Below the pieces are notes generated by a model. That model did not search any database. It had not been told where the DNA came from and was given only the letters and a program-made list of their open reading frames with translations. Both the position numbers and the translations under genes were made by a program. From positions 62,001 through 126,000 of the forward strand of contig NZ_LFVU01000004.1 in assembly GCF_001047375.1 (NCBI RefSeq): a stretch of 64,000 nucleotides of DNA, given 5' to 3'. How positions within the stretch are numbered: the stretch's first letter is position 1; each line of letters opens with the position of its first letter. Source of the DNA: Clostridium cylindrosporum DSM 605. GTDB lineage: Bacteria > Bacillota > Clostridia > Clostridiales > Caloramatoraceae. This document shows positions 16,526 to 19,185 of this stretch, one piece after another.

Positions 16526-17341
16526 TTACTTTGTTTTTCTTTTTTTCCTTTTATATTGTCCTTTAACTTTATCCACGCTTTTAGGTTTGTTATAATCTAC
16601 TTTTACATCAACCCTATCTAAGTGCTTATTTGTATCCTTACCCATATATCTTTTTATATCTTTAAGTAATTGCTCCATTTTAATACACTCTTCATTAAGT
16701 AATTCGTACTTTTCCTTTGAGTGAATATATCTTGGACAATAATGCATTATAACCCCTTTTCTAGATTCATCATATCCTTTATCAGGTATATTAGGGTCAT
16801 AGTTATGAATCTTATCATTTCTATATCTACTTATCTTACAGTCTTTCCAGAAGTTTTCTAGCCTATTACTAATTCCTTGATTTTTCATCTTAACCTTTTT
16901 TATTATGTTTTTATTAAATCCAAAACTACCATCAACATTTATATCATAATATATATTTAAAACATGATATAATGCATCAATTATAGATATATATTGAACT
17001 TGAAAATTTCCATAAAAATAATTTAATTGAAATAAATAGCCTCTACCTTCATCTGATAGATTAGGAAAAAATCGTCCATTATCTTCTCCAAGGTCACATA
17101 TAGTTCTATCATCTATATTCTTATTATAAAAATATATAAAATTAATAATACTAAATCTTAGTTCACGAAGTCTTATTCTTAATTGGATTAGCCAAGGGTC
17201 TAAAGTATATCCTAAATCAAGATAATCGATTTCTTTTCTTGTAGTTTTGTACTTAAAATCAAACTTTAAATTATCAATAAAGCTATGATCTTTAGCTATT
17301 TGAATTTGATCCTTTTTATCTATAAACCAATATTTAAACAT
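16526..17341 (-). CDS. HEPN-domain protein, Cthe_2314-like, putative RNase
   Basis: A 271-residue protein without signal peptide. The central part (about residues 50-215) is helical and contains RNDKIH at residues 174-179, a match to the catalytic R-x4-H motif of HEPN ribonucleases. The arrangement resembles the Cthe_2314-type HEPN family as I remember it. The last 40 residues are strongly basic (ending KGQYKRKKRKTK), which would suit nucleic-acid binding. The ribosome-binding site is weak (GTGAGATGA). No antitoxin or nucleotidyltransferase partner is adjacent; manC follows on the same strand. Target and role are unknown. Confidence 0.55.
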   Translation of the reverse strand: MFKYWFIDKKDQIQIAKDHSFIDNLKFDFKYKTTRKEIDYLDLGYTLDPWLIQLRIRLRELRFSIINFIYFYNKNIDDRTICDLGEDNGRFFPNLSDEGRGYLFQLNYFYGNFQVQYISIIDALYHVLNIYYDINVDGSFGFNKNIIKKVKMKNQGISNRLENFWKDCKISRYRNDKIHNYDPNIPDKGYDESRKGVIMHYCPRYIHSKEKYELLNEECIKMEQLLKDIKRYMGKDTNKHLDRVDVKVDYNKPKSVDKVKGQYKRKKRKTK

Positions 17342-17695
17342 ATTTCATCTCACATTTCTACAAACTATAATATTATATTATTATTACTAAATCATTTATG
17401 TTATTTTAAAATTCTTTATCTAGGTACTTGTAGCCCTTAAGCTATCAGACAATTAACTATTTAAATTCAACAAATAAATATATATTCCAACAATTCTAAC
17501 ATTATTCCTTCTATTTTATTAATATTTTCGTCGAAACTTACAATAATATATAGTAGCATGATTAATACCTTTCTATTTAAACTATAAAGATTAATCTATT
17601 GCTATTTGCCATTTATTATGATAAATTATATCTAAGAATAATTATTATCATATAATAAATAGTAATCGTATAAAATAATTATGAGGTGATTAATA
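17342..17695. other. AT-rich divergent intergenic region
   Basis: This stretch separates the divergent HEPN and HesB-like genes and must hold both promoters. It is almost pure A/T apart from GTACTTGTAGCCCTTAAGC near 17423. No convincing paired -35/-10 boxes, small gene or repeat was found. Confidence 0.4.
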
Positions 17696-17998
17696 ATGAA
17701 CATTCGTATGGACAATGAAACAAGCAAAGCGCTTAAACAAGAACTATCTAATAAAGACAAAGAATATGGAATTAAAGTAGATATATCTACTATTTCATGT
17801 GGTGGACCTATACTTTCGGTTTCTCTTTGTGAAAAAAACAGTCCTGAAGAATTTTGTGAAGTAAATGGAATTAAGGTCTTCTTAGATGAAGGTTTAGATA
17901 AGTATACAGATAGTATTGAAATAAGTAAAAACGATAAATTCGGTGGAGGGTTCTCAGCAACCTACGGCGATGGATGCAGCGCTTGTAATGTAGACTAA
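17696..17998 (+). CDS. HesB-like protein, cysteine form (paralogue of the selenoprotein)
   Basis: A 100-residue small protein related to the HesB/IscA Fe-S assembly fold, best matching the HesB-like (seleno)protein family (TIGR01911 from memory). The key stretch is ISTISCGGPILSVSL with Cys at the position that is Sec in the downstream paralogue. A conserved middle FCEVNGIKVFLDEGLDKY and a C-terminal GGGFSATYGDGCSACNVD follow. GAGGTGATTAATA precedes the ATG, nearly identical to the leader of the next gene, indicating tandem duplication. A strong terminator follows, so it is expressed separately. The exact biochemical role of the family is not established. Confidence 0.75.
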   Translation: MNIRMDNETSKALKQELSNKDKEYGIKVDISTISCGGPILSVSLCEKNSPEEFCEVNGIKVFLDEGLDKYTDSIEISKNDKFGGGFSATYGDGCSACNVD

Positions 17999-18018: not shown

Positions 18019-18056
18019 AGAGAGTATTCCTTAACTTATAGGAATACTCTCTTTTA
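18019..18056 (+). terminator. Terminator of the cysteine-form HesB-like gene
   Basis: A perfect 12-bp stem (18019-18030 with 18041-18052, loop of 10) followed by TTTATAT. Confidence 0.88.
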
Positions 18057-18195
18057 TATGCTTAATTACTTCTCTCTATACTCAAATGTATTATCATTGA
18101 TTTTTTCTATACATTATGGTAAGTTATATATAAGGATAATAATTATTACCTAAAAACTTTTCCCTTCAATATTATTAATTTTCGAGGTGATTATA

Positions 18196-18501
18196 GTGAA
18201 TATTATTATGGATATAAACACTAGTACAGGTATAAAAGAAGTACTAGATAAAAAAGACAAACCTTTTGTAATTAGAATCTTTATAACTACAATAGGATGA
18301 GACGGTCCAGGACTTGGGATTGCTCTGTATGAGCAAAAAGAAAATGATAAAATAATAGAAGTTGATGGTATAAAGTTCTATCTAGATAATGGTGTACAAG
18401 AATTCCCTAGTGATATTCAAGTATTTACCCTTGATGAAAGATTCGGTGGAACTGGTGAATTTATGGCCAAATATACAGGGGTTCAAGGTTGTTCAATTTA
18501 A
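18196..18501 (+). CDS. HesB-like selenoprotein with in-frame TGA read as selenocysteine
   Basis: A 102-codon gene split by TGA at 18298-18300 (codon 35). Reading through gives ITTIG-U-DGPGLGIALYE, aligning Sec exactly with Cys in the upstream paralogue (ISTIS-C-GGP). The frame stays homologous on both sides: MDINTSTGIKEVLDKKDK before, and IEVDGIKFYLDNG, DERFGGTGEF and a C-terminal GCSI after. GTG 18196 is the start, with GAGGTG at 18184-18189. The HesB-like family is known to contain natural selenoproteins with Sec at this cysteine. A short hairpin lies directly after the TGA, as bacterial SECIS elements do. No selABCD genes are in the window. Repeat R3 begins 8 bp after the stop. A plain nonsense mutation is less likely, because the 67 codons after TGA remain conserved. 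Confidence 0.85.
18298..18335 (+). promoter_or_regulatory. Candidate bacterial SECIS hairpin
   Basis: Directly after the TGA, GGTCCA and TGGGATT can pair with one bulged G (three Watson-Crick pairs, an A-U closing pair and G-U pairs below), leaving GGACT as the apical loop. Position and G-containing apical loop fit bacterial SECIS elements. Judged by eye only. Confidence 0.5.
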
Positions 18502-18509
18502 GGGCTTTG

Positions 18510-18738
18510 ATGTAAACTTGTGCTCTTGCAGAAGTGGTATATAGGCTTAAAAACAACGAGAGCTTCAAATAGATTTTCTAATCTGAAAAATAGCCTTAGA
18601 CTAAGTGTGACATCTAAATCGCTTTGCTTGCCGATGTCTTCTAAGTCTAAGGCTATTTTTACAGATAAGAGTCTCTAGTTTTCGCCTCTACTGTTTTAAA
18701 CCTATATACCACTTCTTGCAATGAAACTATCCTTACAT
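18510..18738 (-). repeat. Palindromic element R3 (variable-arm family)
   Basis: A 229-bp element starting 8 bp after the selenoprotein stop. The outer arms 18530-18554 and 18693-18716 pair with one mismatch and one bulge; the inner arms 18586-18602 and 18644-18660 pair perfectly over 17 bp. It is in reverse orientation, with AAAACAACGAGAGCTTCA and GATAAGAGTCTCTAG as hinges and core AAATCGCTTTGCTTGCCGAT. The ends are ATGTAAAC and CCTTACAT. Confidence 0.85.
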
Positions 18739-18783
18739 AACAAAATTAAATTTCACTTGTATACAATAACTTTTTAATATATA

Positions 18784-18816: not shown

Positions 18817-18981
18817 CTTCATTTTATACTTCATAATAGTTTCTTCCTATGTAAAATCTTAAGAGATATGTTTTAGGATTAATATATCTTTAGAATATTA
18901 ATTTAACAAATAAAATTTCAAACTACTCTTAATATGATAACTTCTAATTCTCGAAACAAAAGACTATTTCTCTTCTTTGTC

Positions 18982-19185
18982 ATGTAGGGATAGTTTCATT
19001 GCAAGTAGTGTAGCCTTTATATAAACCATAGAGCTGAAAGTTAGAACTTCTTATTCTAAAAAATCCCCTCTCCTTAGTAAGATATCGCACTTAGGAGAGG
19101 GGATTTTTTTGAATTAGAAATTCTTCTTGAAAGTCTCGTCGGTTTATATAAAGGCTACACTATTGCAGAAGCACTCCCCCTACAT
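18982..19185 (+). repeat. Palindromic element R4 (variable-arm family, short core)
   Basis: A 204-bp element bounded by ATGTAGGG and CCCTACAT. The outer arms 19007-19027 and 19141-19161 are perfect over 21 bp; the inner arms 19058-19074 and 19093-19109 are perfect over 17 bp. Hinges CATAGAGCTGAAAGTTAGAA and TGAAAGTCTCGTCGGTTT are present. The GGCAAGCAAAGCG core is deleted, leaving GTAAGATATCGCAC. The right end overlaps the first base of the HPP stop codon. Confidence 0.85.

Follow-up and report, generated by a model that had tools for sequence, protein, structure and literature searches.

The reading frame at 18196-18501 is almost certainly the gene of a HesB-like selenoprotein, in which one in-frame TGA would be decoded as selenocysteine (Sec), as judged from sequence comparison (Table 1). 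The gene is a new and divergent member of a selenoprotein family, TIGR01911/NF038090, that is already described (PMC1794560, PMC13188914); the earlier note on this DNA, which had proposed such a selenoprotein here, was therefore correct, but the kind of protein is not new. The gene widens the sequence range of the HesB-like selenoprotein family. It forms a tandem pair with a Cys-form paralogue, and of all the findings this Sec/Cys arrangement most deserves to be followed up. Below, the two are called the Sec gene and the Cys gene, and the window is the whole 64 kb stretch of DNA that was analysed.

Table 1. Features of the tandem HesB-like locus, in window coordinates
Feature	Position	Strand	Remarks
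Cys gene upstream region	17570..17695	+	homologous to the region 5' of the Sec gene; includes near-palindrome 17636-17650
Cys-form HesB-like paralogue	17696..17998	+	SCGGP, 100 aa; tandem, sister of the Sec gene
Intrinsic terminator between the twin genes	18019..18052	+	
Sec gene upstream region	18070..18195	+	near-palindrome 18134-18148
HesB-like selenoprotein gene (predicted)	18196..18501	+	GTG start, Sec35 at TGA, TAA stop, 101 residues
Putative Sec-encoding TGA	18298..18300	+	within UxGP; aligns with Cys35 of E. coli IscA
Bacterial SECIS apical hairpin	18320..18336	+	stem UUGCUC/GAGCAA, loop UGUAU, 25 nt 3' of the TGA

An in-frame TGA in a divergent HesB-like gene

The Sec gene begins with GTG at 18196, downstream of a Shine-Dalgarno-like GAGGTG, and runs to a TAA at 18499-18501; codon 35 is a TGA, the only one in frame between the two. 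It is the only open reading frame of at least 90 codons outside the called genes of the 64 kb window to have exactly one in-frame TGA. As the earlier note had observed, this TGA aligns with the conserved Cys of the upstream paralogue (GUDGP against SCGGP at Cys35), and the frame stays homologous for the following 67 codons, i.e. 66 sense codons and the stop. Scored alone against a profile built from the rest of the family, with both window genes excluded, the part after the TGA gave 39.9 bits; the best of 1000 shuffles gave 10.8. Residues 35-38 of the product (UDGP) match UxGP, the motif and membership feature of the HesB-like selenoproteins of TIGR01911, a family that does include Sec at this site (PMC1794560, PMC13188914).

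Despite scores below the cut-offs, the two best NCBI families for the product were NF038090 (46.1 bits, cut-off 85, E 5e-12) and TIGR01911 (39.5 bits, cut-off 66.35, E 6e-10), both of which are matched by all 39 of the 39 aligned members. The shortfall concerns a threshold for automatic naming and no biological feature of the family. The product is at most 38% identical to homologues outside the genome and has a long branch (1.23); it retains every residue that is invariant in a 10-row alignment (U35, G37, P38, L44, E46, G58, K60, F83, G84 and C99). Because the scores fall below the curated thresholds, automatic annotation will probably overlook the gene or cut it short, and it is plausible that standard gene callers would miss it.

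Homologues, hairpin and decoding of the TGA

Homologues were searched for in 99 related genomes and in 226 genomes of the order. About sixty Clostridiales genomes have TGA-containing homologues, and the homologues in the two sets are mostly either stop-free or carry one TGA, which lies at the UxGP site in all 38 Sec forms aligned residue by residue, from two bacterial families. Random stops, which the earlier note had set against its own reading, were looked for: the extra stop was TGA, and TAA was found only in three rows of the 226-genome search, each of which also had one TGA. In the one row of these three that was read whole (genome G013, locus L036), the TAA is the terminal stop just past the frame. 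One row (G001) has two TGA codons, near its end. The selA gene was present in 60 of the 60 genomes with the TGA form and in 108 of the whole set of 226 (Fisher P = 3e-25, a value that overstates independence because related genomes are not independent draws). An alignment-based scan of genome contigs found eight named relatives, including Caloramator, Thermobrachium celere and Fonticella tunisiensis; a single-sequence scan of the contigs gave no matches, and the genome sets searched held no close relative of the host genome.

The small hairpin that had been noticed after the TGA is real and has SECIS geometry, with six stem pairs (18320-18325 with 18331-18336) and a 5-nt loop. Among the parameters set out for the bSECIS model are a loop of 3-9 nt, an upper stem of 4-16 bp, a spacing of 16-37 nt, a G in loop positions 1-2 and an MFE of at most -7.5 kcal/mol (PMC13188914). 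The hairpin of the Sec gene agrees with each of these (5 nt, 6 bp, 25 nt, G at loop position 2 and -10.1 kcal/mol). When synonymous codons were drawn at local usage, a stem this long arose in 0.4% of draws (P = 0.004), an energy this low in 1.2% (P = 0.012) and the two jointly in 0.04% (P = 0.0004). In the alignment of the 38 Sec forms, pairing holds in 217 of the 228 stem cells, a level reached by 0 of 2000 shuffles, with compensatory two-sided changes at pair 2 (U-A/G-C), pair 4 (U-A/C-G) and pair 5 (U-A/A-U); in nine Cys forms the stem pairs and the loop G are mostly lost. The loop overlies a CTG codon, kept though rare (3 of 184 Leu codons, 1.6%, in five neighbouring genes). Its sequence is UGUAU compared with UGGAU in 35 of the 38 homologues, and UG[G/U] agrees with the published model. 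When the folded segment takes in the UGA, another pairing becomes the MFE structure, at -10.2 kcal/mol versus -9 kcal/mol for the SECIS-containing centroid.

These results bear on the possibility that the copy is dying, a Cys gene in which the Cys codon appears as TGA through a nonsense mutation or a sequencing error and whose function the Cys twin covers. The long branch, UDGP in place of UGGP, LYEQ in place of LDEQ, the altered SECIS loop and the intact twin alongside would all suit such a history. However, the family normally has TGA at codon 35, the frame beyond it is intact and homologous, the invariant residues and the Shine-Dalgarno sequence are kept, and the hairpin outdoes the synonymous null, so that decay of a Cys gene is very improbable.

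Decoding as Sec is also consistent with the machinery of the genome. The selA, selB, selC and selD genes, whose absence the earlier note would have counted against its reading, were all found, in the order selD-selA-selB-selC in one cluster (C27:315148-319649): selA at 625.9 bits, selB at 381.3 bits, selD at 405 bits and tRNA-Sec at 66.1 bits, the last likewise called as tRNA-SeC(tca) by ARAGORN. Two further Sec genes in the genome, selD itself and grdA, each have one in-frame TGA; Sec in GrdA is well known. The genome strongly disfavours TGA as a stop, yet TGA is a real one: the window ORFs of at least 100 aa (n = 44) end in TAA 24 times, TAG 19 times and TGA once, and stop usage at other loci of the genome is similar (TAA 33, TAG 18, TGA 2). 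A genome-wide alternative code with TGA as an ordinary amino acid rather than Sec would fit that rarity (1 of 44), but it can be rejected as next to impossible, since TGG codes for Trp and occurs 95 times among the ORFs called in the window, the one TGA-terminated ORF is an ABC transporter ATPase gene, tRNA-Sec and the full Sec machinery are present, and SelD and GrdA have single TGAs.

With the code unchanged, we propose that the hairpin 25 nt 3' of the UGA would recruit SelB, which would bring the tRNA-Sec that decodes the UGA of the Sec gene, and that a 101-residue protein with Sec35 would result.

The tandem Cys gene and the question of a selenium switch

The Sec and Cys copies are 40% identical. 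In the tree they are sisters (99/96), each other's closest relatives, and stand beside 14 sequences, all Sec and all from the same bacterial family (88/76), although the long branch makes the exact position of the pair unsure. Because the pair branches beside an all-Sec clade, the most likely history is a tandem duplication after which the upstream copy changed from Sec to Cys, with some doubt left by the long branches; both genes would then have been born of one duplication, and the Cys copy would most likely be a former Sec gene. The Cys gene has a decayed SECIS-like hairpin, with 5 of 6 pairs and the G gone from the first two loop positions. Remnant SECIS elements in Cys forms, one HesB-like form among them, were described in 2006 (PMC1794560).

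Elsewhere in the order, G043 and G025 have tandem Sec/Cys pairs in which the Sec form comes first, and G035 has one with the Cys form first. The two copies in G035 (L065 1938-2315) are 86% identical and its TGA copy is without the conserved SECIS loop (UAGAU), so the TGA there may be a recent change from Cys, a pseudogene or an error. The genome studied here has a third HesB-like gene (L050 1423-1743, minus strand, G000:C28), a Cys form in which CSGA replaces CxGP and the tail is rich in Cys.

The terminator between the twins makes it probable that the Sec gene has its own transcript. The two upstream regions are related, with a local alignment score of 98 compared with 77 for the best of 500 random pairs. 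Each contains an AT-rich near-palindrome (core ATAATWATTAT) that lies some 60 bp before its hesB gene and just past a possible -10 box, and the two form a possible candidate for a shared operator. The motif TGATAATNATTATCA occurs, within 2 mismatches, at only two sites in the window, which lie 60 and 62 bp 5' of the twin hesB genes. Regulation by Fur was considered and rejected: two such sites in 64 kb are what chance predicts (mean 1.87), the genome shows no excess of sites with at most 1 mismatch (18, with 20 in the reversed control) and no iron genes could be recognised beside these sites, and the motif is missing upstream of most homologues. Its presence at both twins may simply reflect a duplicated promoter.

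The cell would thus have selenium-dependent and selenium-independent isoforms on separate transcripts, and the twins might be used as a selenium switch. By analogy with Methanococcus, where Sec/Cys isoform pairs are selenium-switched (PMC11097638), the Clostridiales tandem pairs (window, G043/G025 and G035) could be a recurrent local switch of this kind, which we regard as rather unlikely; if true, it would be a bacterial parallel to the Methanococcus Sec/Cys isogene switch. Given a selenoprotein, the rival reading is that the two copies are carriers with different permanent jobs and no selenium switch. Identity of just 40%, an extra C-terminal Cys in the Cys copy (CSAC; the Sec copy has one) and related upstream regions, which suggest shared and not opposite regulation, speak for this; the recurrence of tandem Sec/Cys pairs in the order and the Methanococcus precedent speak against it, and we judge the matter nearly balanced, tilting slightly away from separate jobs. 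Either way, adjacent Sec and Cys twins are a natural pair for asking what selenium contributes to an IscA-type protein.

Several other elements adjoin the pair. Directly 3' of the Sec gene is a dispersed palindromic repeat (18527-18722) with 23-nt arms (18530-18552/18694-18716) and an inner hairpin (18586-18660); about 20 diverged copies (69-83% identity) lie elsewhere in the genome, many on the same contig, and the family is MITE- or REP-like. In a second palindromic element (18976-19162), perfect arms of 22 nt (19006-19027/19141-19162) flank a 41-nt hairpin, and 18710-18744 and 18976-19010 are mutually inverted copies. Rfam matches in the region were to miRNA models, far under their gathering scores and falling on a palindrome, and were discarded. 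A Cthe_2314-like HEPN domain protein (Pfam PF18730) is encoded on the minus strand at 16526-17341.

Predicted fold and comparison with known systems

The product of the Sec gene is predicted to have an IscA fold. AlphaFold gave a model that has a mean pLDDT of 82.8 but is weak over the C-terminal fifth; its best PDB match is E. coli IscA (1s98, TM ~0.7), with 1r94 and 2d2a also found (IscA, SufA and relatives). In a profile alignment, Sec35 falls on IscA Cys35 and Cys99 on IscA Cys99. A-type carriers (IscA/SufA/ErpA) have as ligands C35 and a C-terminal CxC, and we take the third Cys of IscA to fall at residue 101; the full ligand set is not found here, since Sec35 and Cys99 are present but residue 101 is Ile. 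From the fold and the alignment of Sec35 and Cys99, the likeliest role is Fe-S or metal binding, or a redox variation on it, and we consider Fe-S or metal handling probable. Sec35 would replace the cluster-ligating Cys35 of IscA and, probably with Cys99, would serve to bind a metal or Fe-S cluster or to pass it on, or else act as a redox centre.

Compared with E. coli IscA and SufA, the product thus shares a predicted fold and two aligned ligand positions, but it is only ~21% identical, has Sec for Cys35 and Ile101, and no isc or suf genes adjoin the Sec gene. The HesB-like selenoprotein MMJJ_08070 of Methanococcus maripaludis was identified by mutagenesis and 75Se labelling and, where the source describes it, its function is stated to be not clear (PMC11097638); it differs in being archaeal, with a different SECIS system. 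The nearest clade outside the pair consists of the HesB-like proteins of Caloramator, Thermobrachium and Fonticella, all Sec forms and, as judged by matching contigs, from the same bacterial family as the genome studied here, though with ~25-35% identity; the loci that were read showed no Cys twin in tandem. The family that the product resembles most fully is TIGR01911 (HesB_rel_seleno)/NF038090 (IscA_HesB_Se), in which Sec or Cys occupies one site within UxGP in a protein of ~100 aa with a C-terminal Cys, the SECIS follows right after the UGA, and the hosts are anaerobic Clostridia; from this family it departs in scoring below both cut-offs, in its UGUAU instead of UGGAU loop and in its single C-terminal Cys.
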